Origin: Spirochaetales bacterium | GTDB lineage: Bacteria > Spirochaetota > Spirochaetia > SZUA-6 > RPPD01 | NCBI GenBank assembly: GCA_016929065.1 | Contig: JAFGJO010000002.1 | Location: 62,001 to 126,000, forward strand | Direction: 5' to 3' | Length of the DNA stretch: 64,000 nt | Part shown: positions 30,215 to 42,310 of the stretch, piece after piece | Position numbering within the stretch: the stretch's first letter is position 1 | How the letters are laid out: every line of letters starts with the position of its first letter | Position numbers and translations under genes: made by a program | Notes under the pieces: model-generated | Database searches by the model: none | Told to the model about the DNA's origin: nothing | The model's input: only the letters and a program-made list of their open reading frames with translations

Positions 30215-32077
30215 ATGCTGACCGCCGATGGAAAAAAACAGATAGAACGTGAACTCGAAAAAAATATAACCGGTAAAGAAACTGTCTGTGCCCGATTATC
30301 CGGGGACATTGTTGTTGGGGATGCTGTTCCCGAAACAGAAACCGGGGTTCCGGGGATTGTCTTCTGTACAAATAAACGGCTGCTGTTTGTTTTTATTAAA
30401 AATAAGAAAACAGAATGTATTGATGCCTCTTTCAAGGACATGGATACCTTCTCATCGGAATTAAAGCAGGCACAGCCTGTACTTACCGCGACAACAAAAA
30501 AAGAGTCCATAACATTCTCCTCTGATGGTTCGGATGATGAGGTGAGGGAATTTATTGAGGCGGTCAGAAAAGCTATTAATGATCAAAAGGAAAAAGTTGT
30601 CTTTTTCGACTACAGTTCAAATTACGATTTTCTGGTGATTGAGGCCAGTAAAATACTGAACAGTCTGAATGCGTATTTCAACAAGGAAAACAGCGAGTTC
30701 TGCCGCGTTTTTGTCAATGACATGATCGTCCTGTCTTTCTTGATCATCGGAACCAAAAAACTGCTCAGCGAGAAAGAAATATTTTTTATGACCCTCAATC
30801 TTCTTCCTTTGCATCAGCAGATCGATGAAAAAAGCAAGGACAAAGTCCTGGGAATAATCAACAAATTTGATCTGGAAGATGTGGATAAGGTAACTGCCTT
30901 GTGGCCGAAGATCGCGCGGTTTTTTCCGGAGAGTGTCAAGGAAGAAATTACCTCATTTCAGTCGCTCGACTTTTTATTGGAGGTCGATGCGGGAAGCGGG
31001 ACAAACCACTACACCAAAATCCGCACGCTCATGTTCAATTATGTGCAGTGCCTGATAAAGGCAGACGGCAAGATCACCGAAGCTGAAATACAGGTAGAAG
31101 AGCAGTGCAATAAAATACTGTTTCATGACAAACAGGAGACAGTTTCCCTTCCGGGAAAAGAGCCGTCAGCCAGGCCCGGGGAGAAAACGCAGGCGCAAAA
31201 GGAAATAAAGACACCGGTCAGGGAGCCTGAGGAAACGCTTGAATCGGTATTGGGAAAAATAGATGAACTTGTCGGCATGAAGAACATTAAACAGGAAATC
31301 AGTACCCTGGTGAACCTGATAAAAATCCGAAAGGCCAGGGAGGAGCGGAACTTGCCGGTTTCGAAAATCTCCCTCCACGCGGTATTTCACGGCCCGCCCG
31401 GAACCGGAAAAACGACGATCGCCCGGCTTTTGGGAAAAGTGTACAAGACCCTCGGGCTGTTGAAAAAAGGGCACATCATCGAAACTGACCGTGCCGGGCT
31501 GGTGGCAGGCTATGTCGGGCAGACAGCCATTCAGGTGAATACAATAGTGGAACAGGCGCTGGATGGAATATTGTTTATCGACGAGGCCTATGCATTGAAA
31601 CCAAAAGGCACGGGAAATGATTTTGGACAGGAAGCGATCGATACCATACTCAAACGAATGGAAGACAACCGTGACCGGCTGGTGGTGATTGTCGCCGGAT
31701 ACCCGGATGAAATGAAGGATTTTATCGAATCCAATCCTGGATTAAAATCCCGCTTCAGCAGATATTTCTATTTTAAGGACTACAAACCCGAAGAATTGAT
31801 AAAAATCTTTGAAATATTCTGCAAAAATGCTGCATACAAAATAACCAAAACAGCAAAATCAAAACTGCTGGAGCTGTTGAAAACGTTATATCTGAAAAAG
31901 GACAGAATGTTCGGGAATGGAAGGCTTGTACGTAATATCTTTGAAAAAGTCATTGAAAACCAGGCGAACCGGCTGGTGAAAATAAGTGCCCTCACTGATG
32001 AAGTCCTGTCAACATTTCAGACAGCCGATATCCCCGATGAAAATGAACTGAACATGAGTCCGGATCAGAAAACGTGA
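30215..32077 (+). CDS. CbxX/CfqX-type AAA+ ATPase with N-terminal PH-like and TerB-like regions
   Basis: 620 residues in three parts. Residues ~20-110 look like a bacterial PH-like domain (VCARLSGDIVVGD, IVFCTNKRLLFVFI). Residues ~125-310 are helical and contain YVQCLIKADGKITEAEI, the aDG...E signature of TerB-like domains. Residues ~340-600 are the AAA+ domain of the CbxX/SpoVK group: Walker A GPPGTGKTT (near 392), Walker B ILFIDEAYAL (near 453), arginine finger region KSRFSRY. Such ATPases remodel protein complexes. It converges on the ABC transporter genes and lies close to telA, matching the known linkage of TerB, TelA and CbxX proteins in predicted stress systems. No clear ribosome binding site. 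Confidence 0.82.
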   Translation: MLTADGKKQIERELEKNITGKETVCARLSGDIVVGDAVPETETGVPGIVFCTNKRLLFVFIKNKKTECIDASFKDMDTFSSELKQAQPVLTATTKKESITFSSDGSDDEVREFIEAVRKAINDQKEKVVFFDYSSNYDFLVIEASKILNSLNAYFNKENSEFCRVFVNDMIVLSFLIIGTKKLLSEKEIFFMTLNLLPLHQQIDEKSKDKVLGIINKFDLEDVDKVTALWPKIARFFPESVKEEITSFQSLDFLLEVDAGSGTNHYTKIRTLMFNYVQCLIKADGKITEAEIQVEEQCNKILFHDKQETVSLPGKEPSARPGEKTQAQKEIKTPVREPEETLESVLGKIDELVGMKNIKQEISTLVNLIKIRKAREERNLPVSKISLHAVFHGPPGTGKTTIARLLGKVYKTLGLLKKGHIIETDRAGLVAGYVGQTAIQVNTIVEQALDGILFIDEAYALKPKGTGNDFGQEAIDTILKRMEDNRDRLVVIVAGYPDEMKDFIESNPGLKSRFSRYFYFKDYKPEELIKIFEIFCKNAAYKITKTAKSKLLELLKTLYLKKDRMFGNGRLVRNIFEKVIENQANRLVKISALTDEVLSTFQTADIPDENELNMSPDQKT

Positions 32078-32086
32078 ACAGAATAC

Positions 32087-32980
32087 CTACAGGGTTTGAA
32101 ATGAATCGGCATGTTTCAGGTTGAAATCTTTTATATGCTGCAGATAGTCCGGGTCAAATCCTTCGAGCCGGATTTTTTGAATTAATTCCCGGAATACTTT
32201 GGTATATTTTACATCGGTCGCGGAGATTTCCTGTTTCATGTATTTTGTGAGATCCAGGTCGGTGACAACCCGGGAACCATGTGATGCCTGATCAGATCCC
32301 CGGTCGTCGGAGTAATATCTTGAGACTGTTAAAAGCCGGGTTCCCAAAAAGACCGCCTCTTCCAGATCATGGGTGATAAAAATGATGGTCATTTTTGTTT
32401 CATCCCAGAGTTCCAGCAGATACAACTGCATGTCCTCGCGGGTTCCGGGGTCGAGCGCGCCGAACGGCTCGTCCATGAGTACGATTTTCGGATTGATGAT
32501 AAGGGTCTGGAGAATAGCGACCCGCTGCCGCATACCGCCGGAAAGTTCATGCGGATATTTTTTTTCGTGTTCAAGCAGATGCACTTTATCTAGATAGTGT
32601 CGAACTTTTTCACGGTACTCGCTTTTATTGGACCGCCATTCGAACGGGGTATGGGTGAGCTGCATTCCCAGCAGAATGTTGTCCATCACCGACAGATGCG
32701 GAAACAAAGAGTACTGCTGGTAGACCACGCCGCGGTCGGGATTGGAGAACATGGCCCGTTCCTGTTCAATATAAATTTCGCCTGATGTGGGCAGTTCCTG
32801 CCCAATGATAAGCCGCAGCAGGGTGGATTTTCCATGGCCGGAAGGGCCCACCATGGTGCAGAACTCGCCTTTTGCAAGCGAAAAGTCGATATCCTCCAGC
32901 ACGACATTTCCACCATATGCCTTATGGACATTGCTGAGGTGCAGAATATTTTTTTCAAGAAGTTTTTTTTCTTCCACCAT
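32087..32980 (-). CDS. ABC transporter ATP-binding protein (nitrate/taurine/sulfonate type)
   Basis: About 297 residues with Walker A (GPSGHGKST), the Q loop, signature [11 protein letters not shown], Walker B ([12 protein letters not shown]) and the H loop ([10 protein letters not shown]). This is the SsuB/TauB/NrtD group that powers import of nitrate, taurine, sulfonates, cyanate or amide-like compounds. The start at 32980 follows CAGGAAAC; the open frame extends further upstream only because it overlaps the permease gene. It is the last gene of the substrate-binding protein-permease-ATPase operon; the permease stop is 14 bases upstream. Confidence 0.9.
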
Positions 32981-32994
32981 AATATTGTTTCCTG

Positions 32995-33822
32995 TCAATC
33001 CTTGTGGTACCAGGGGAACCGCGATTTCACCACGTAGATCAGCCCGAAATCTATCAGGAACCCGATAAGGGTAATCCAGACCACATAGGGAATGATGACA
33101 TCCATGGCCAGGTATCTGCGTACGAGAAAAATGCGGTACCCCAAACCGTTTGTCGAGGCGATTGATTCTGAGGCGATAAGATACACCCATGCAGCGCCCA
33201 GCGACAGCCGCACCGAATCTATGAGCTTGGGCAGTATCTGCGGGAAGATGATCTTCCAGGGAATCTGATGCTGTTTTGCGCCGAGGGTGAGCGATTTTGT
33301 AATCATTTCCTCGGGTATTTTCTTAACAGTGATATAAATGTCGCGGATAATCATGGGGCAGGTCCCGATGAATATCAGCATGATTTTTCCGATGTCCCCG
33401 ACGCCGAAGGTGATAAACAAAATCGGCAGGATTGCGAGGGGAGGGATGATGGAAATAAAATTGACGAAGGAGAGGCTCAGGCTTTTAAATCCGCGGAATA
33501 TTCCCATATACAGTCCGATGAACAGTCCGATACTGGAAGACAACAGAATCCCGGTCCCGATTCTTGCCAGGCTGGAGAGCGTATCATCGAGCATTAAAAG
33601 TTTGCCGCTGTCCTCGTCCGGAGTAAAGGCGTATTTGATGACCGAGTTCACCATTTTGGGGAGCGACGGAAGCAGTTTGTCATCCGGATTAATCGAAAGA
33701 CGGTAATACGACCCAAAAAAATACACTCCTACCAGCAGCAAAAAAGGCAGAAGAGCGAGCAGTATATTCAGCTTGAAACCAGGGCGTGCATGAATCCCCA
33801 GAAATCCTGGTACTTTCGGCAT
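32995..33822 (-). CDS. ABC transporter permease (SsuC/TauC-like)
   Basis: 275 residues with about six membrane helices and the cytoplasmic EAA-type loop ([20 protein letters not shown]) that docks with the ATPase. The family is the binding-protein-dependent inner-membrane component of nitrate/taurine/sulfonate importers. GGAG precedes the ATG. It sits between the substrate-binding protein gene, from which it is separated by a terminator-like hairpin, and the ATPase gene. Confidence 0.92.
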
Positions 33823-33833
33823 GGTGTTTACTC

Positions 33834-33864
33834 CAAAAAAATCACCCGGCTTGCCGCCGGGTGA
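33834..33864 (-). terminator. Intra-operon terminator or attenuator
   Basis: ATCACCCGGC and GCCGGGTGAT form a perfect 10-bp stem; on the minus strand it is followed by seven T. It lies between the substrate-binding protein gene and the permease gene. Partial termination here would give more binding protein than permease, a common arrangement in importer operons. Confidence 0.85.
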
Positions 33865-33873
33865 TGTAAAGAT

Positions 33874-34917
33874 TTACAGTTTTCCGTCCTGGGCCATTTT
33901 CATGTATGCAGGATCAAAGGTCATTTTGATGTTGCTTTCGTCCCCGATTACCGAAGCATCGGGAAATTTGATGCCGACATAATCTTTTGTTTTTGCCTCG
34001 GCATACAGCCCGTGATCAAATGAAAATGTCCGGACATATTCCATGGTCTGCTTTAACCGTTCGCTGTTGTTGAAGGAAACCGCTTCCGGTGCATTGTAAA
34101 ACATGGCGGTTGTTTCGAGCTGCTGCTTGAATTCCTCGACGGTTGCACCCGAGGTATTTGCCATGAAGGCAATAGCTTCTTCATATTTTTCGTGGCCTTT
34201 CTGCATGTGGGCCATGGTTTCATACCAGGCGCCGGTGAGGGCTTTTTTGAAGCTGTCTGCGGCATCTGCTTTTACGACAGTCATGTCGATAATCTCGCCG
34301 GGGATGAGTGAGGAATCAAATACCACCTTTGTGTCGGGGGCATTGCGTACCTGCATTAAAATGGGATTCCATGTCACGATCGCTGCGGTCTTGCTTGAAT
34401 CAGAAAGGTACAGGGAGCCGATGTCCGCGTCACTGGTGTTGACCAGTTTGACATCTTTTTCCGACAACCCGTTCATCTCAAGCGCCCGCGCCAGAAGGTA
34501 ATGGGACACTGACAGTTCGACCAGTTTGATTTCTCTTTCCTTGACGTCCATGACCGTGGTGCCGTTTTTAACAACAATTCCGTCGTTGCCATTGGAAAAA
34601 TCGCCAATTATCAATACGGAATTGTCAACTCCTCCGACCGCGGGAATGGTGAGAGCGTCCATATTGGTCATGGTGCATGCGTCAAATTCTCCGGCAGTAT
34701 ATAAATTAATTGATTCGATATAGTCATTGACAAGGGTCACTTCGATGGAAATACCGTATTTGTCTGCCCATTTGCTGATTATTCCCGCCTTTTGCGCATA
34801 AGCCCAGGGTTCCCACCCGGTATAATGCGACCATGCGAGTTTAAATGTCGGTTTTGAAGGCTGACAGCTCACTACAAGCAGTATTGAAAGAACAGCAATA
34901 AATAGAATTTTTTTCAT
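33874..34917 (-). CDS. ABC transporter substrate-binding lipoprotein (NMT1/THI5-like, urea-carboxylase-region type)
   Basis: 347 residues; strong GGAGGAG site, lipobox VVSC. The mature part begins KLAWSHYTGWEPWAYA and contains AGEFDACTMTNMDAL and GDFSNGNDGI, wording very close to the family of binding proteins found beside urea carboxylase genes (TIGR03427 type). No urea carboxylase gene is in this window, so the ligand is open: urea, another amide, or an unrelated small anion. It is first in the importer operon and divergent from the SBP-OmpA operon, with 268 bases between. Confidence 0.88.
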   Translation of the reverse strand: MKKILFIAVLSILLVVSCQPSKPTFKLAWSHYTGWEPWAYAQKAGIISKWADKYGISIEVTLVNDYIESINLYTAGEFDACTMTNMDALTIPAVGGVDNSVLIIGDFSNGNDGIVVKNGTTVMDVKEREIKLVELSVSHYLLARALEMNGLSEKDVKLVNTSDADIGSLYLSDSSKTAAIVTWNPILMQVRNAPDTKVVFDSSLIPGEIIDMTVVKADAADSFKKALTGAWYETMAHMQKGHEKYEEAIAFMANTSGATVEEFKQQLETTAMFYNAPEAVSFNNSERLKQTMEYVRTFSFDHGLYAEAKTKDYVGIKFPDASVIGDESNIKMTFDPAYMKMAQDGKL

Positions 34918-35054
34918 GGAATACTCCTCCTCCTCGGATAATTATTTTAATTGTTGGCTGTTGGATGCAAAACAGTAATTTGCATGTAGAAAGATTGTAG
35001 ATTCTTCAATTGTAAATGTCAATTGTTATTTTCCTGTGTATCGAATTAACTGTA

Positions 35055-35083
35055 TTGCGGAAACAAACGGTTATTGCTATTAT
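35055..35083 (+). promoter_or_regulatory. Promoter of the SBP-OmpA/TelA operon
   Basis: TTGCGG (35055-35060), a 17-base spacer and TATTAT (35078-35083), giving a predicted ~95-base leader before the gene at 35186. The leader includes GGAGG just before the start codon. Confidence 0.45.
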
Positions 35084-35185
35084 TAATGGAAAAGGGAATC
35101 TGCATATTATTATTGATGAAAAAACTATTTTGGACGTACCGGGTTATACCATGATTTGATTTTAAAATGAGTATGGAGGAAAAAG

Positions 35186-36886
35186 ATGAGATTCCGAATT
35201 ATTTGCCTGATTTTTGCTGTGATTGGCCTGTTTTTTTACTGCGGTGACGGGAATCAGGCCGGAGGGGAAGATTCAATGAACCCATCCGGCGGGGATATTG
35301 ACATCAATGCCCAGGGGTACAGTGATTCCGGAATCGTTCGAGTTCCCCTTATTACCTGGGGTGCGGATTTAATTACTGTGTATGCCAACGGCGGCACTTT
35401 GAAAACAAGCCAGGGGTCTTTGTTTCAGAAATACAATCTCAATATGGAACTGTTCCGGGAAGATGACTTCCAAAAGCAGATTAATGAGTATATCAGCGGG
35501 AAAAGCCCTTACCTGCGCGGGACAATGGGTATGATCAACATGGCCGCGGAAAGCATAAAACAGTACCCGGAACTCAAACTCGTGGTGATTTTTCAGCATT
35601 CATGGTCGGCCGGCGGCGATGCTCTCGTCGTAAAACCCGGCATCAAGGCGGTGAAGGATTTAAAGGGCAAGTCGATTGCCATCCAGAAAAACGGCCCGCA
35701 TCTGGCATATTGCATGAAGCTGCTCTCCGATGCGGGGCTTTCGGATAAGGATGTGAATATTGTCTGGACAAATGACCTTGTGGGGCCCGATGGCGACACA
35801 CCGATGGCGAAATTCTATAAAAGCAATATCGATGCTGCCTTTGTCATTATCCCCGATGCACTGGCGTTGACATCAAGCGGGACAATTGGCACCGGCGCGG
35901 AGGATTCGGTTAAAGGAGCGGTAATTCTTTTGTCTACCAAAACCGCAAACAGGATCATCAGTGATGTGTATGCAGTCAGAAAAGATTATTTTGAAAAAAA
36001 CAGGGACAGTGTGAAAAACTTTGTCCACGCCCTTTTCATTGCAGAAGAGCAGGTACGGGATCTGTTTAAAAATTCGAAAAGCGAAAGTTTCAAGAAATTC
36101 ATTACCGCTGGAGCAAAAATATTGCTGGACAGTTCAGAAGCTGGTGCGGATATGGCGGGGATGTTTTATGATGCTGAAATGTCAGGATTCCAGGGCAATG
36201 TGAAATTCTTTTCAGACAAGAATTTTTTAAGAAGATTTGAACGGCTCAACGAAGAAATTCAGACTTCTTTTTCCCGGCTCGGTATCATGAGCGGCAGACG
36301 TGAGGTGCTGAATGCGAATTGGGACTACAATGAATTTCGCAGCGGACTCGTCTACGCAGATAACGTCGAGGTTCCGAAGTTTGAAAAGGATACTGTTGCT
36401 GCGGTGATCACCAAGCGGCAGCAGACTGCATCCCCTGAAAGCGGTGAATTGTTTTCCTTTGAAATATTTTTCCAGCCGAACCAGCATGAGTTTTCGGCAA
36501 ATCTGTATCGGGAACAATTTGACAAGGTGATTGACTTTTCATCAACTTACGGCGGAGCGATTATCACCATTGAAGGGCATTCTGATCCTATGGGATACCT
36601 TCGAAAGAAAAAGGAAGGGGAAACCGAGGTTCTTCTTAAAAAAATAGAGCAGGCAGCAAAAAATTTGAGTTTAAGCCGGGCAAACAGCGTGCGCGATGAA
36701 TTAATTCAATTCGCCCGGGACAAGGGGATCACCCTTGACCCGAGCCAGTTCGCCACCGTCGGCCATGGGATTGAAAAGCCGGTATATGCGCTCCCCCAAT
36801 CCGATAAGGAATGGCTTGCAAACATGCGTGTTGAGTTCAAGATTATTCAGATCGAAGCGGAAGAAAACGTATTCAAAAAATTGTAG
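35186..36886 (+). CDS. Lipoprotein fusion: periplasmic substrate-binding domain plus OmpA domain
   Basis: 566 residues; GGAGG before the ATG, lipobox FYC (near residue 20). Residues ~50-400 form an NMT1/PBP2-like ligand-binding fold (VPLITWGADLITVYANGG, VKDLKGKSIAIQKNGPH, SNIDAAFVIIPDAL). Residues ~425-560 are OmpA-like (IITIEGHSDPMG, LSLSRANSVRDEL, ANMRVEFKI). So a solute-binding domain is tied to a peptidoglycan-binding domain instead of feeding a transporter. It starts the five-gene operon to telA. Sensing or buffering a ligand at the wall is my inference. Confidence 0.85.
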   Translation: MRFRIICLIFAVIGLFFYCGDGNQAGGEDSMNPSGGDIDINAQGYSDSGIVRVPLITWGADLITVYANGGTLKTSQGSLFQKYNLNMELFREDDFQKQINEYISGKSPYLRGTMGMINMAAESIKQYPELKLVVIFQHSWSAGGDALVVKPGIKAVKDLKGKSIAIQKNGPHLAYCMKLLSDAGLSDKDVNIVWTNDLVGPDGDTPMAKFYKSNIDAAFVIIPDALALTSSGTIGTGAEDSVKGAVILLSTKTANRIISDVYAVRKDYFEKNRDSVKNFVHALFIAEEQVRDLFKNSKSESFKKFITAGAKILLDSSEAGADMAGMFYDAEMSGFQGNVKFFSDKNFLRRFERLNEEIQTSFSRLGIMSGRREVLNANWDYNEFRSGLVYADNVEVPKFEKDTVAAVITKRQQTASPESGELFSFEIFFQPNQHEFSANLYREQFDKVIDFSSTYGGAIITIEGHSDPMGYLRKKKEGETEVLLKKIEQAAKNLSLSRANSVRDELIQFARDKGITLDPSQFATVGHGIEKPVYALPQSDKEWLANMRVEFKIIQIEAEENVFKKL

Positions 36887-36913
36887 TTCCGGGTGCGGAA
36901 GGGGGAAGAGGTT

Positions 36914-37669
36914 ATGGCGGGCAAAAAACCCAGTGTTGGTGTGGCCATTTTTATTGTAGTTGTTTCAGCGGTAATCGGAATAGGTCTTCTGGTGTTAACC
37001 GATGAGGAGCCTGTGCCGGTTTCGGCAACAAAACCAAAGGACACTGAAGCCAGTGTTCTCTGGTTTCAGGATAATTCTGTACTGCAGAATATTTCTCTTG
37101 AGCAGGATTTTCAGAAAGACAATTATTATATAGTATTTGACGGTTCCGGGAGCATGCGGGAACGGGACAAACTGACGATTGCAAAAACTGCGTTATCAAA
37201 ATTTGTCACCTTTGTTCCTCCCGATGCCAATCTGGGACTTGCAGTTTTTGACGGTTCCGGCCTTTCCGAACGGGTTCCCCTTGGTACTGATCGGGAACTT
37301 TTTCTGAATGCAGTGAACAAGGTCAGGGCAGACGGGAATACTCCGCTTGACCAGTCCATGGAACTTGCATTCGATAAATTGCGGGTCCAGGCGCGAAAAC
37401 AGCTGGGATATGGGGAGTATAATATTGTTGTTGTCACGGACGGGGAAGCAACCTCAGGGTATGAACCAGACAGTATTGTGCGGAAAATTCTAACGAGCAG
37501 CCCGGTTGTTATTCATACAATCGGTTTTCAGATCGGCGAGAATCACTCCCTGAATCAACCCGGAAAAATATTGTATAAATCTGCAAACAATTTTGATGAA
37601 CTCAGTCAGGGGCTTGAGTCGGTTCTCGCTGAATCCGAGAACTTTGTCGTGACCGATTTTAAAAAATAA
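36914..37669 (+). CDS. Membrane-anchored von Willebrand factor A domain protein
   Basis: 251 residues. One N-terminal membrane helix (VGVAIFIVVVSAVIGIGLLVL) anchors a vWA domain with the metal-site motif DGSGSM (near 76), the conserved Thr in DGNTPLD and the Asp in VVVTDGE. The domain would face the periplasm and bind partners through a metal ion. The ribosome binding site GGAAGAGG supports 36914. The gene lies between the two SBP-OmpA fusions (27 and 15 bases of spacing), pointing to one complex. Confidence 0.88.
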   Translation: MAGKKPSVGVAIFIVVVSAVIGIGLLVLTDEEPVPVSATKPKDTEASVLWFQDNSVLQNISLEQDFQKDNYYIVFDGSGSMRERDKLTIAKTALSKFVTFVPPDANLGLAVFDGSGLSERVPLGTDRELFLNAVNKVRADGNTPLDQSMELAFDKLRVQARKQLGYGEYNIVVVTDGEATSGYEPDSIVRKILTSSPVVIHTIGFQIGENHSLNQPGKILYKSANNFDELSQGLESVLAESENFVVTDFKK

Positions 37670-37684
37670 CAGGACGAACCAGCA

Positions 37685-39229
37685 ATGAAAAAACATACAA
37701 TAATTCTGATCGTATTGGTTCTTCTTGGCGTGCTGGGCATTATTGGCTACAAAATTGCGAGTCCCTATCTTGAGGAGACGGCTGCTCTGAATACAAGCGA
37801 TGCAAAGGACATGAAGGGTAAAATACGCATCGCGCTCGACAGCTGGATCGGGTATTATTATTTACAGTCCCCGGTTTTCAAGAAACTGATGCGTGAAGAC
37901 AAATATCTGGTTGAAATCATCGATGATAATGCCAATTATGCAGAGCGGATGAAAAAGCTTAAAAATAATGAAATTGATTTTGCAGTGGCGACGGTCGACT
38001 CATACCTGCTGAATGCAGCGCCGGAGGGGTTCCCGGGGACAATTATCACTGTCCTGGATGAATCAAAAGGCGGTGACGCGATTGTTGCCTGGAAGGATAA
38101 AATCGGCCGGCTCGAAGAACTGAAAAACGGCATGAAGTATTCCATCGCCTTTACCCCGGATTCCCCAAGCGAATATCTGCTCAAGTCGATCGGTGTTCAC
38201 TTCAATATTACCACGCTCCTGGAAAAAGATGGCTCGTGGCGCAGGGAAGCAGACGGCGCCGAAGATGCATATAACAAATTATTGAAACATGAGGTTGATG
38301 TCGCCGTTGTATGGGAGCCGCATGTCACTGCCGCGCTTTCCAGGGAGGGGATTGTAAAACTGCTCGGCTCGGAAGACACCGAAAAGCTTATCGTTGACAT
38401 CCTTTTGGTGAATCGCCGTTTTGCAGAAAAAAACAGTGACTTGGTGATACTGATGTTAACCAATTATTTCAAAACTCTTTTGGTCTATTCGAATGATACG
38501 GCCATGCTCAAACAGGATATCATGAAAGAAACGAAAACTACACAGGTGAATGTTGAGGCGATGCTCAAGGGGGTTGAGTGGATCAATCTTGTGCGCAATG
38601 CCCAATGGTTTGGTCTTTTGCAGGACAGCTCGTTCAGCAAGGAGGAATTGGTTGACACGGTTGAATCTACCATCGATATCCTGATCGAGAACGGCGACTT
38701 TTCCGGTAATCCTTTACCGCAGCGGGATGCCAGCACGATTATCAATTCAAGTTTTGTTTCCCGGCTCTATGCCCTTGGCGGAACGGGAACAACAGATATC
38801 CAGTACACGAACTCCCTGAAAAAGGATTTTTCAAAACTGTCAGCTGCCGAGTGGGAGCTGTTGCGGCAGGTTGGAACACTAAAGGTGCGTCCCATTACCT
38901 TTACCAGCGGTACCTCGGATCTGAATGGACAGGGCGAACAGCAGGTCGATACCATTGTAGAGAATATCAAGCATTACCCGAATTTCAGAATTCTGGTAAA
39001 GGGACATACAGGAACGCGCGGCGACGCGAATCAGAATATTATTTTGTCCCGTGAAAGGGCCGCAACCGTTGCCAACTACATGATAACCCATTACAATGTC
39101 GACAAAGACCGTATTCGGTGGGTCGGAGTCGGCGGGGAAGAACCGCTCGTCCAATCGTCTGACGAATCAAGCCGGGAGTATAACGACCGGCTGAAACGGG
39201 TTGAAATTTTGCTTGTTGCGGAAAATTAA
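37685..39229 (+). CDS. Membrane-anchored substrate-binding domain plus OmpA domain, second copy
   Basis: 514 residues. An N-terminal membrane helix (TIILIVLVLLGVLGIIGYKI) replaces the lipid anchor of the first fusion. Residues ~45-340 are NMT1/PBP2-like (KIRIALDSWIGYYYLQSPVF, DFAVATVDSYLLNAAPEG, VDVAVVWEPHVTAAL), the sort of fold seen in nitrate/sulfonate/taurine binding proteins. Residues ~400-510 are OmpA-like (FRILVKGHTGTRGD, LSRERAATVANYM, LKRVEILLV). With the first fusion it gives one copy per membrane: outer-membrane lipoprotein and inner-membrane form. Confidence 0.86.
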   Translation: MKKHTIILIVLVLLGVLGIIGYKIASPYLEETAALNTSDAKDMKGKIRIALDSWIGYYYLQSPVFKKLMREDKYLVEIIDDNANYAERMKKLKNNEIDFAVATVDSYLLNAAPEGFPGTIITVLDESKGGDAIVAWKDKIGRLEELKNGMKYSIAFTPDSPSEYLLKSIGVHFNITTLLEKDGSWRREADGAEDAYNKLLKHEVDVAVVWEPHVTAALSREGIVKLLGSEDTEKLIVDILLVNRRFAEKNSDLVILMLTNYFKTLLVYSNDTAMLKQDIMKETKTTQVNVEAMLKGVEWINLVRNAQWFGLLQDSSFSKEELVDTVESTIDILIENGDFSGNPLPQRDASTIINSSFVSRLYALGGTGTTDIQYTNSLKKDFSKLSAAEWELLRQVGTLKVRPITFTSGTSDLNGQGEQQVDTIVENIKHYPNFRILVKGHTGTRGDANQNIILSRERAATVANYMITHYNVDKDRIRWVGVGGEEPLVQSSDESSREYNDRLKRVEILLVAEN

Positions 39230-39242
39230 AAAAGGGTAATGC

Positions 39243-40094
39243 ATGGATCAGAAAAAAAAATTGACAACAGTTGATTTTTCCCGGGAATCGGTGAACAGGG
39301 CTGTAATGAATGATATACTGCAGAATCCGGTTTCAACCTATATAACCTTCGGGGCCGGCATATTGCTGCTTGCCAATATTCTGCTTTTTGGCATGCCTCT
39401 TCTTTTTATTCTGGCCCTTGGTGCTCTGGCCCTTGGTGCCCTGAGTTTTTTTATCAATTTTATTTTCCGGAAAGAACAATTTGCCTCAAAATATATTGCG
39501 AAAGTCAGCAAACAGCTTGAGCAGCAGCAGCGAATCGTCCTGACAAATCTCAAGCGAAATCTTGCACAGTATAAAACAATAGAGGGGCTGGCAAATTATT
39601 CCGAGCAGGCAGTTCAGCAGTTTGAAAAAATCCAGCACAAATTCACAAGCTTTAAAAAACTGCTTTCCGACAAATATAATGTAAAGGAATTGACCTATGC
39701 CCGATTTTTTGGAACCGCGGAACAAGTGTACCTTTCGACACTCGACAATCTCACCGATATCATGAATACCCTGGAGAGTGTGAGCACAATAGATGTAACA
39801 TATATTAAAGAACGGTTTACAATCCTTGAAGGGCTTGCAGAACCGGAAGATGCAGACAAGCGGGAAATCGAGACCCTGAAAAAAAGACAGGTACTGCGCA
39901 AGCAGCAGCTGGCAAGAATTAATGAGTTGTTGACTCTGAATGAGGAAGCGATGACGCAGATTGATGCGTCGATGGCGGCGATTTCCGAGGCGAAAACAAA
40001 GCTGGGACGCGCGTCAATGAATATGGAAACCGCACGAGAGGAACTGCAGGAGCTTGTCCGCAGGACAAAAAAGTATTCCATGGAAGCGCAATAG
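39243..40094 (+). CDS. XpaC-like membrane and coiled-coil protein
   Basis: 283 residues: two closely spaced membrane helices (residues ~30-75, YITFGAGILLLANILLFG and LFILALGALALGALSFF), then about 200 residues of coiled coil (VSKQLEQQQRIVLTNLKRN, REIETLKKRQVLRKQQLARIN). TelA genes are often next to xpaC, whose product has this same membrane-plus-coil layout; I infer XpaC-like by layout and position, not by strong motif. It follows the second fusion by 13 bases. Confidence 0.65.
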   Translation: MDQKKKLTTVDFSRESVNRAVMNDILQNPVSTYITFGAGILLLANILLFGMPLLFILALGALALGALSFFINFIFRKEQFASKYIAKVSKQLEQQQRIVLTNLKRNLAQYKTIEGLANYSEQAVQQFEKIQHKFTSFKKLLSDKYNVKELTYARFFGTAEQVYLSTLDNLTDIMNTLESVSTIDVTYIKERFTILEGLAEPEDADKREIETLKKRQVLRKQQLARINELLTLNEEAMTQIDASMAAISEAKTKLGRASMNMETAREELQELVRRTKKYSMEAQ

Positions 40095-40131
40095 GGTGTA
40101 TTGTATTCATTATTTGTAAAGGAGTATGTCG

Positions 40132-41325
40132 ATGAGTGATCAACAGAAAATGGCCATTCCTGACAAGGATGAAATTAAAAAGGAACTCGGATTAACCGAT
40201 CCCTCAGATATAAAGGTGGCGAAGCCTGAGGAAACAAAAATGGACAGCGAGGCATCGGCGTTTGTCAGCAAACTGCTTGATTTTGCCGCTGATGACATAA
40301 ATGCAAAGGAATCCAGCAAAGTTGCCGTGGAAATTCTGGGTGAAAGCGTGCAAAAAGAAGCCGCGCACAGAAGCCAGATGCTGCAGGGCCCGATCAATGA
40401 GTTAAAAAAACGGGGAGATGACGGCGGCGAGGTCGCCAACGCGCTTATCGATTTGAAACTGAAGGTTGAAGAACTTGATCCCGCAAAAATAGATTTCGGG
40501 AAACCAGGATGGTTTTCCCGGCTGGTCGGTAAAGTTCCGGTTGTGGGAAAGGCATTAAAAAAATATTTTACAAAATTTGAAAAATCACAAACAATTATTG
40601 GTGCAATCATCAATGCACTGAAAAACGGAAAGACCCAGCTTGAACGTGACAACGGCATGCTGATCGAAGACCAGAAGGCATTGCGCGAATCAACCATAAA
40701 ACTGGCCAAAGTCATTAAGCTTGGTCAAATGATTGACACAAAACTTCAGCACAAGGCTGCCCGTGATTTTTTACAGGATGAAGAAAAAAAGCGCTTTATC
40801 GAGGAAGAGCTTTTGTTCCCGCTTCGCCAGCGGATCATGGACCTGCAGCAGCAGCTTGCTGTAAGCCAGCAGGGAGTTATCGCTATAGAGCTTATAATAC
40901 GGAACAACAAGGAACTCATGCGCGGGGTGGACCGGGCGGTGAATGTTACGGTGAACGCGCTTCAGGTGGCGGTAACCGTGGCCCTGGCATTAACCCATCA
41001 GCGGATTGTTCTGCATAAAATTGAAGCCGTAAACAAAACGACATCAGACCTTATCGCCTCGACCGCGGCAACACTCCGGCAGCAGGGAGCGGCAATTCAC
41101 AAACAGGCTTCGTCGAGCATGCTGGAAATCGAGTCATTGAAATCCGCTTTCCGCGATATCAATATTGCCATGGAAGATATTGCCAAATACCGCAAGGAAG
41201 CGCTTCCCAAAATGGCAGAGACAATCCTTGAATTTGAAGACCTGTCCTTGAAGGGCGAGAAGATGATTCAGAAGATGGAAAAGGGAAACAAGATAAATCC
41301 ATCGGTCACACTGAGTATCGAATAA
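40132..41325 (+). CDS. telA: Toxic-anion-resistance protein TelA
   Basis: 397 residues, largely helical, with the TelA-family core: FVSKLLDFAADDINAKESS, GWFSRLVGKVPVVGKALKKYF, NALKNGKTQLERDN and the long helix with AVNVTVNALQVAVTVALAL. TelA was named for tellurite resistance and is linked to other envelope stresses; its biochemical role is unsettled. The start at 40132 has AAAGGAG 7 bases upstream; the ATG at 40126 is too close. It is the last gene of the operon and is followed by a shared terminator. Confidence 0.92.
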   Translation: MSDQQKMAIPDKDEIKKELGLTDPSDIKVAKPEETKMDSEASAFVSKLLDFAADDINAKESSKVAVEILGESVQKEAAHRSQMLQGPINELKKRGDDGGEVANALIDLKLKVEELDPAKIDFGKPGWFSRLVGKVPVVGKALKKYFTKFEKSQTIIGAIINALKNGKTQLERDNGMLIEDQKALRESTIKLAKVIKLGQMIDTKLQHKAARDFLQDEEKKRFIEEELLFPLRQRIMDLQQQLAVSQQGVIAIELIIRNNKELMRGVDRAVNVTVNALQVAVTVALALTHQRIVLHKIEAVNKTTSDLIASTAATLRQQGAAIHKQASSSMLEIESLKSAFRDINIAMEDIAKYRKEALPKMAETILEFEDLSLKGEKMIQKMEKGNKINPSVTLSIE

Positions 41326-41334
41326 TTAGTTTTG

Positions 41335-41366
41335 AAGCGGGATTCATCAAAACCAGAATCCCGCTT
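41335..41366. terminator. Bidirectional terminator-like hairpin
   Basis: AAGCGGGATTC (41335-41345) and GAATCCCGCTT (41356-41366) form a perfect 11-bp stem between telA and the convergent gene; the hairpin covers the last codons of the latter. T runs on both sides are short. Confidence 0.7.
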
Positions 41367-42150
41367 TAATTGTCGGCCCATACATAATCAAATCATTGTA
41401 ATTATTGAAATCAAAACCCACACCGAGGACGAAGAAGTCGAATTTATACATAATTGAAGTTGATAAAATAATATACCAAACCGTGTCCTTGAATGAAAAC
41501 AGTGAATAGAATTCAGCAAGGATATTCGGGGTCAACCGCGCGACCGTACTGGCTCCAAATGAGAAAGAGAAATATTGGACATCCACCTGTGAAAAAAATC
41601 CACCGTACAAATTGACATGAAAATTATTGAAAGGTATGGACACTCCTGCATTAAAGGAAAGGGAATTCAGGGGCAGTTCGCCAAGTTCATTTCCAATCAA
41701 CGCGTAATAGAAGTTCAAATGAATAAATGAAAAAGACGCATTGACCATTGTAGTGGCACTGTAGATGGAGTAGTCCTGTCCAAACAAATATGCTCCGTGT
41801 TCCGAGATGGACAGATATGATTCGGAATCCGATAAAATGCAGGAGCCTTGATCTTTGTTGGCGGTGGTGCTGCCGGTGGAGGAATCTGAAGAGTCATCAT
41901 CGCTCGAATTACTGCCTATTTCTGAAAGACACTGCAGCATTTTCAGGATGCTGTTGCAGAAATTTCCGGAGTTTTTATTGTCATCATCCTGCTGGTTCGG
42001 CACTTCATGATTCTCCTTGTTTTCTTCCTGTTCCTTTTTTGTACGTTCCCTGTATTCATCAAACGTCTCAGCATGGAGTGCTGTTGCCGGGATTATCATG
42101 AATGCGGCAATCAATAATAGCGGAAGAAGGAAAAAGACTCTGTTTCTCAT
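41347..42150 (-). CDS. Predicted outer-membrane protein with acidic linker
   Basis: 267 residues. Signal peptide (FFLLPLLLIAAFMIIPATALHAE), a highly charged linker rich in Glu, Asn and Asp (residues ~25-100, EYRERTKKEQEENKENHEV and a Ser/Asp run), then about 165 residues of alternating strands ending in KAGFWF, a typical barrel terminus. AGGGAG precedes the chosen ATG. No named family. A barrel fold and surface role are inferred from strand pattern only. Confidence 0.65.
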   Translation of the reverse strand: MRNRVFFLLPLLLIAAFMIIPATALHAETFDEYRERTKKEQEENKENHEVPNQQDDDNKNSGNFCNSILKMLQCLSEIGSNSSDDDSSDSSTGSTTANKDQGSCILSDSESYLSISEHGAYLFGQDYSIYSATTMVNASFSFIHLNFYYALIGNELGELPLNSLSFNAGVSIPFNNFHVNLYGGFFSQVDVQYFSFSFGASTVARLTPNILAEFYSLFSFKDTVWYIILSTSIMYKFDFFVLGVGFDFNNYNDLIMYGPTIKAGFWF

Positions 42151-42310
42151 CGAATAACTCCCTGTTGTATCAATATATTCCAATCTAACTCCAAATATCG
42201 ATTATTTCCTGATAACTGATCCGGGAAAAAAAATAATCAGGCTCAGAATTATATAATGCAAGTTCGGGTATTTTCAGACTGATTCAATGTTGCTATACTT
42301 TGATACTACC

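Follow-up and report, generated by a model that had tools for sequence, protein, structure and literature searches.

OmpA-fused solute-binding proteins, a VWA protein and TelA recur beside an ABC importer in bacterial genomes, plasmids and giant phages

TelA and XpaC are widespread proteins, the former named after tellurite, and to our knowledge neither has been explained mechanistically. Work on Listeria and Lactococcus has linked both to stress of the cell envelope (PMC12791056, PMC3139573). In the XpaC-TelA pairs (yaaN/xpaC, Listeria lmo1966-lmo1967 and Lactococcus llmg_1115-telA1) and in IncP klaABC, which share this link, TelA is encoded beside a membrane coiled-coil protein. The same neighbourhood is found in a gene cluster that we analysed in a 64,000-nucleotide stretch (the window; contig JAFGJO010000002.1, positions 62,001 to 126,000) of the 3.49-Mb draft genome of a Spirochaetales bacterium (G000; G and L numbers are our handles for genomes and loci). 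Here TelA is the last gene of a unit that also encodes two fusions of a solute-binding protein (SBP) with an OmpA domain (SBP-OmpA 1 and 2), a VWA protein and a membrane-anchored coiled-coil protein (gene 8), and the unit diverges from the genes of an ATP-binding cassette (ABC) importer with a free SBP of its own. In contrast, the XpaC-TelA pairs that we examined (L113, L118) had no SBP-OmpA, VWA or ABC importer alongside, and our comparisons did not identify gene 8 of the window as XpaC.

The SBP-OmpA fusions, the VWA protein, the coiled-coil membrane protein, TelA and the importer most likely form one system, because single co-directional operons recur and because 12 of the 18 loci of SBP-OmpA 1/VWA type have importer genes next to this core (counted by hand among loci with the core and enough flank). 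The nine-gene arrangement of the window, which includes an AAA+ ATPase, is not due to chance, because its gene order recurs in genomes, plasmids and phages and because all three matches of TIGR03427 type in G000 lie inside the cluster. Likewise, every such match in G002, the nearest relative, lies inside its cluster.

Recurrence in genomes, plasmids and phages

The original prediction had coupled SBP-OmpA, VWA and TelA proteins to a dedicated importer and had proposed to look for the same gene order elsewhere. The order was indeed found again in other genomes, in plasmids and in phages. Far from never being linked, importer and TelA genes stand together on one strand in L035, L088, L078, L086 and L120. 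The layout of G002 is that of the window, while in G003 (L035) one strand carries SBP-OmpA 1, VWA, SBP-OmpA 2, gene 8, TelA, a radical S-adenosylmethionine (SAM) gene, SBP, permease and ATPase. G735 (L088) has the eight genes consecutively on one strand, G795 (L089) has the same arrangement minus TelA, and in G320 and G314 the importer lies immediately upstream on the same strand. The Vibrio plasmids pSEA2 and pAM7 (L078, L086) encode ATPase, SBP-OmpA 1, VWA, SBP-OmpA 2, gene 8, TelA, SBP and permease in one run. Single co-directional operons are thus found in Desulfobacterota-type genomes, Vibrio megaplasmids and the spirochaete relative G003. The loci with an adjacent importer are those of the window, G002, G003, G735, G795, G320, G314, G343 (where only the permease is visible, at the contig edge), Vibrio, G828, LR756511 and L149. 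The system is rare among the sampled genomes: SBP-OmpA 2 had strong matches along most of its length in 6 of 393 genomes of the phylum and in 3 of 345 of a second phylum.

A deep relative, G096 (L108), encodes in one run SBP, SBP-OmpA (about 24% identical to the window's), permease, ATPase, VWA, canonical XpaC and canonical TelA. Fusions of SBP_bac_11 (or a relative) with VWA lie beside TelA in L111, L105 and L077, and XpaC is also present in L111 and L105. Because of the G096 run and of these fusions near XpaC and TelA, we conclude that the association of solute-binding domains with VWA, XpaC and TelA extends over deep lineages. In many relatives TelA is followed by a RaSEA-like radical SAM gene (TIGR01210, 117 bits for a cut-off of 212), which in L050 follows SBP-OmpA 2; no match to this gene was found in G000.

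The full eight-gene order was also found on a 545-kb IMG/VR phage contig (L120), where it is broken by an HNH endonuclease gene; this contig also encodes a terminase (phrog_2, 4.8e-28) and a portal. LR756511 (595 kb) encodes SBP-OmpA 1, VWA, SBP-OmpA 2, two proteins without Pfam match at the positions of gene 8 and TelA, and then SBP, permease and ATPase. A compact form, with the order small protein, membrane coiled-coil protein, SBP-OmpA, permease and ATPase, is present in the GenBank phage records of Lak-A1, Lak-B1 and LR756501 (735 kb), and its SBP-OmpA and coiled-coil protein had matches in 15 of 15 Lak records. Among the IMG/VR contigs with a compact SBP-OmpA, 19 of 19 have the coiled-coil gene followed by those of SBP-OmpA and the permease, and 18 of 19 the ATPase; the small protein was unseen in two. 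Terminase was found in 4 of the 13 IMG/VR records tested; for the others we rely on IMG/VR for their classification as viruses. The compact form brings in a new family of small proteins and a new family of membrane coiled-coil proteins.

The same five genes occur on two contigs assigned to spirochaetes (L056, L057), whose coiled-coil proteins matched that of Lak at about 1e-42 and whose small proteins did so at 1e-12 to 1e-5; at 5-8 kb these contigs are short and may be phage sequence that was binned wrongly. Phage G (497 kb) encodes a permease (gp243), an ATPase (gp245) and two SBP-OmpA proteins (gp249, gp250). Since gp246 and gp247 had no detectable relationship with the compact small and coiled-coil families, we count phage G only as a variant of the compact form. 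An SBP-OmpA match with a query coverage of 80% or more was obtained in 20 GenBank phage records, none of them shorter than 497 kb. This suggests a requirement peculiar to giant phages, with few independent cases, as 15 of the 20 are related Lak genomes. The SBP-OmpA protein tree, several branches of which are long, requires no fewer than three transitions between phage and cell, and the genes have probably moved between the two more than once. This distribution over plasmids and phages is more surprising than the cluster of the window itself.

Proteins and gene layout of the window cluster

SBP-OmpA 1 has a lipoprotein-like signal, a solute-binding domain of NMT1/SsuA type and a C-terminal OmpA domain. 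The latter retains the Asp and the Arg (GHSD...LSLSRA) that are the peptidoglycan-binding residues of OmpA domains. SBP-OmpA 2 has an N-terminal membrane anchor that is probably uncleaved, a TIGR03427-like solute-binding domain and an OmpA domain. The free SBP scored 486.5 bits with TIGR03427 (cut-off 333.9) and is thus a member of this family; with permease and ATPase in the same unit, it completes the gene content of an ABC importer.

We aligned 38 SBP domains, free or tethered, from cells, plasmids and phages. A cleft motif, S-x-G-x-D, was conserved at 95-100% per position and Asp260 at 100%, from which we infer that tethered and free SBPs may bind related ligands. The free and tethered SBPs of G096 are 49% identical to each other, which also points to a common ligand. 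No sequence relative of the SBP or of SBP-OmpA 1 was found in the PDB. The name of the TIGR03427 family refers to urea. A guanidine ABC importer has been established elsewhere, and guanidine is a substrate of urea-related pathways (PMC12186494). Urea and guanidine were both rejected as ligands: none of 9 carrier genomes had a urea/guanidine carboxylase (TIGR02712) over the cut-off or a guanidine-I riboswitch, the latter being detected in the Bacillus subtilis control. The Rfam search gave no match beyond one chance-level microRNA.

Two variants of these proteins were seen. In three genomes the importer SBP is circularly permuted, its C-terminal half (residues ~122-304) preceding its N-terminal half (~23-117); an assembly error is unlikely because of this threefold occurrence. 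On the Vibrio coralliilyticus plasmid p380, an integrase and a Dam methylase are the neighbours of a VWA protein and of a divergent SBP-OmpA-like protein that no longer has the S-x-G-x-D motif; no importer accompanies them.

The VWA protein has an N-terminal membrane anchor and an intact metal ion-dependent adhesion site motif (DGSGS). TelA, the only one in G000, exceeded the curated PF05816 cut-off (239.7 versus 30 bits) and had no significant match among PDB sequences. Gene 8 had been labelled XpaC-like. It did not match the Pfam XpaC model (PF10112) at E up to 1, and hhalign gave 0.7% probability for 12 gene 8 homologues against 5 canonical XpaC proteins. Its AlphaFold2 model was all-helical (predicted local distance difference test, pLDDT, 72) and found no significant match among PDB structures (best E 0.098). 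Homology to XpaC is therefore supported neither by profile nor by fold, and the label covers position and make-up only. Profile similarity between the XpaC-like protein and the coiled-coil protein of the compact form was not found either. Canonical XpaC does occur beside related clusters. In L050-L053 it is convergent to an SBP-OmpA/VWA cluster that has neither TelA nor gene 8, and PF10112 was matched in both of those tested (L050, L051).

The nine genes were all present where the original prediction had placed them (Table 1), with one correction: the importer ATPase starts with the ATG at 32980, and the listed open reading frame to 33190 begins too early. The five genes from SBP-OmpA 1 to TelA are separated by gaps of 6-31 bases. 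The hairpin between SBP and permease is a possible attenuator that would keep the SBP in excess over the permease; the total of terminator-type hairpins found was close to the shuffled mean. Downstream, a putative membrane or outer-membrane protein without family match is encoded convergently with TelA.

Two statements on the AAA+ ATPase did not hold, namely that it carries a TerB-like segment and that it belongs to the system. The TerB model (PF05099) had no match in it at E up to 10, its only match elsewhere in G000 scoring 8.6 bits, so that the TerB-like segment was rejected. The N-terminal part contains a bacterial PH domain (bPH_3, 24.8 bits), and the core lies near SpoVK, EccA and CbbX (best equivalog model 285.5 versus 422.95 bits needed); we assigned the protein to the SpoVK/CbbX/EccA superfamily, with no named equivalog. 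It is not a core part of the system, because G000 and G002 alone have it next to the cluster. Among 80 relatives, four encode its N-terminal part; the two other than G000 and G002 do so on contigs that lack the cluster.

Table 1. Positions of the cluster genes, of sites near them and of related features in other loci
Feature	Position	Strand	Evidence or remark
ABC importer ATPase	32087-32980	-	PF00005 3e-30
ABC importer permease, taurine/sulfonate-like	32995-33822	-	PF00528 3.7e-19; best NCBIfam model TauC 1.5e-31, below cut-off
Free solute-binding lipoprotein (SBP) of importer	33874-34917	-	TIGR03427 3.6e-146; signal ends LVVSC
SBP-OmpA fusion 1	35186-36886	+	Pfam NMT1 2e-11, OmpA 3.3e-06; alignment
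VWA protein	36893-37669	+	PF00092 1.4e-11; hydropathy
SBP-OmpA fusion 2	37685-39229	+	OmpA 2.9e-17, TIGR03427 3.9e-10
Gene 8, membrane-anchored coiled-coil protein in XpaC position	39243-40094	+	No Pfam match
TelA family protein	40126-41325	+	PF05816 6e-71, 239.7 bits
AAA+ ATPase (SpoVK/CbbX/EccA-like), N-terminal bacterial PH domain	30215-32077	+	Neighbour, not core
Promoter-like site TTGACA-17-TACAAT	34994-35022	-	11/12 consensus positions; divergent gap, upstream of importer; pattern match
Terminator-like hairpin	33841-33865	-	Stem of 10 pairs, 7 of them G-C, with T tract; lies between the SBP and permease genes; pattern match
Putative membrane/outer-membrane protein	41347-42183	-	No family match
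Compact five-gene operon	L056:3879-7689, L057:77-5012, L125, L126, L127, L128-L146		
Circularly permuted importer SBP	L035:6807-7892 (G003), L091:6581-7648 (G008 contig 30), L092:4123-5319 (G483 contig 578)		
SBP-OmpA-like and VWA proteins of p380	L087:6237-9908		
SBP_bac_11-VWA fusions	L111:5160-9582, L105:2641-6113, L077:8905-11768		
RaSEA-like radical SAM gene	L034:12768-13778, L032:10618-11622, L033:10651-11655, L035:7999-9042, L036, L037, L050:10845-11822		

Proposed mechanism and alternatives

We give about an even chance to the proposal that the cluster encodes one envelope machine, in which a peptidoglycan-tethered receptor would feed the dedicated importer on a submembrane scaffold. 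The importer's ligand would also be bound by one or two SBP domains that OmpA domains fasten to the peptidoglycan; these SBP domains would capture or concentrate a small organic ligand and pass it to the permease, either themselves or by way of the free SBP. The membrane-anchored VWA protein would serve as a metal-dependent linker, while the membrane coiled-coil protein and TelA would form a scaffold on the cytoplasmic face that keeps the importer in place, perhaps also gating it, and lends support to the surrounding membrane. The physical complex, the hand-over of ligand from wall to importer, the gating or stabilising by TelA or the coiled-coil protein, the scaffold role and the chemistry of the ligand are all putative. 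In the compact form the tethered SBP probably delivers straight to the permease, because no free SBP was seen beside this operon. The compact form represents the minimum set, namely coiled-coil scaffold, wall-tethered SBP, permease and ATPase. The likeliest use of the system in huge phages would be to keep the host supplied, or its envelope sound, during infection.

Several observations weigh against such a machine. The importer is not near the cluster in 6 of the 18 loci (G008, G022, G216, G298, L147 and L148), G008 and G022 having an importer with permuted SBP elsewhere in the genome. TelA is missing in G795, G216, G320, G314, G298 and LR756511. The OmpA domain of SBP-OmpA 2 in the window has kept the Arg and lost the canonical Asp, which is replaced by Gly (GHTG); the Asp is present in SBP-OmpA 2 of G008 and G003. 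Moreover, the predicted model of SBP-OmpA 2 (pLDDT 59.5) was too poor for inspection of the pocket.

Alternatively, the ABC and SBP part could act as a sensor: the ligand, or envelope damage, would switch a coiled-coil/TelA scaffold that closes the membrane to DNA, toxic peptides or oxyanions, and that would serve for superinfection or entry exclusion in phages and plasmids. The proposal that TelA and a VWA protein (TerF) form submembrane structures blocking the entry of phages and xenobiotics, together with the report of TelA in jumbo phages (PMC7824862), fits this idea, as do the carriage of the cluster by mobile elements and a weak, sub-threshold PspA match of the compact coiled-coil protein of L056 (5.7e-05). 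However, permease and ATPase are both complete in nearly all phage copies, and PADLOC models detected only shared AAA+ and OmpA domains and no defence system, so that we consider a sensor rather unlikely. Plain nutrient scavenging, by an importer of urea/guanidine or thiamine-precursor type with extra wall-bound SBPs, TelA and the coiled-coil protein being general stress neighbours, would agree with the TIGR03427 membership of the free SBP and with the guanidine importer known elsewhere. The lack of a carboxylase over the cut-off and of the riboswitch in the 9 carrier genomes, and the retention of coiled-coil scaffold genes even in the five-gene phage form, make it quite improbable. Finally, importer and TelA unit are divergent in the window and the importer has a promoter-like site of its own, as would be expected of two unrelated operons that happen to be neighbours. 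This idea has almost no credit left, being contradicted by the recurrence of the adjacency across phyla and by the single co-directional operons of Desulfobacterota-type genomes, the spirochaete relative, Vibrio plasmids and the phage contig.

Extending the proposal of a tethered receptor and importer, we tentatively suggest that these genes may represent a class of peptidoglycan-tethered ABC machine that has not been described before, that is nearly obligatory for several lineages of the largest phages (> about 490 kb) and that is swapped with bacterial chromosomes and megaplasmids. During infection, a giant virus could thereby control what crosses or damages the envelope of its host; the switch would be TelA/XpaC or a coiled-coil protein resembling PspA.

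Comparison with known systems

The literature searched contained no description of the cluster or of the compact operon, a mention in Anantharaman et al. 2012 remaining possible. TelA and Ter genes are mentioned in a jumbo-phage survey that names no OmpA, permease or ABC transporter, and the papers and annotations for phage G, Lak and the 735-kb phage cover only parts of the operon or nothing. The compact operon gives the neighbouring genes of these phages a common, conserved and testable function. Tying TelA and XpaC to a receptor-importer with a testable ligand would offer a way into their mechanism.

With Zorya, the only resemblance among the eight proteins scanned was a domain-level match to ZorB (26.8 bits); ZorA and other Zor proteins were not found. 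Peptidoglycan anchors of the MotB/Pal/TssL type share the OmpA domain and, in the case of SBP-OmpA 2, the N-terminal membrane anchor as well; the fusion differs from them by the solute-binding domain between anchor and OmpA, and no MotA-like motor gene was seen. Importers for urea/guanidine and for taurine/sulfonate (TIGR03427, SsuABC, TauABC) belong to the same SBP, permease and ATPase families, to which the cluster adds OmpA-fused SBPs; the 9 carrier genomes have no carboxylase over the cut-off. No Pfam match to TerB, TerC or TerD was found among ten cluster proteins. As far as the Ter stress systems of Anantharaman et al. 2012 are summarised in PMC7824862, the cluster has TelA and a VWA protein in common with them, and carries SBP-OmpA fusions and a dedicated importer instead of TerB, TerC and TerD.

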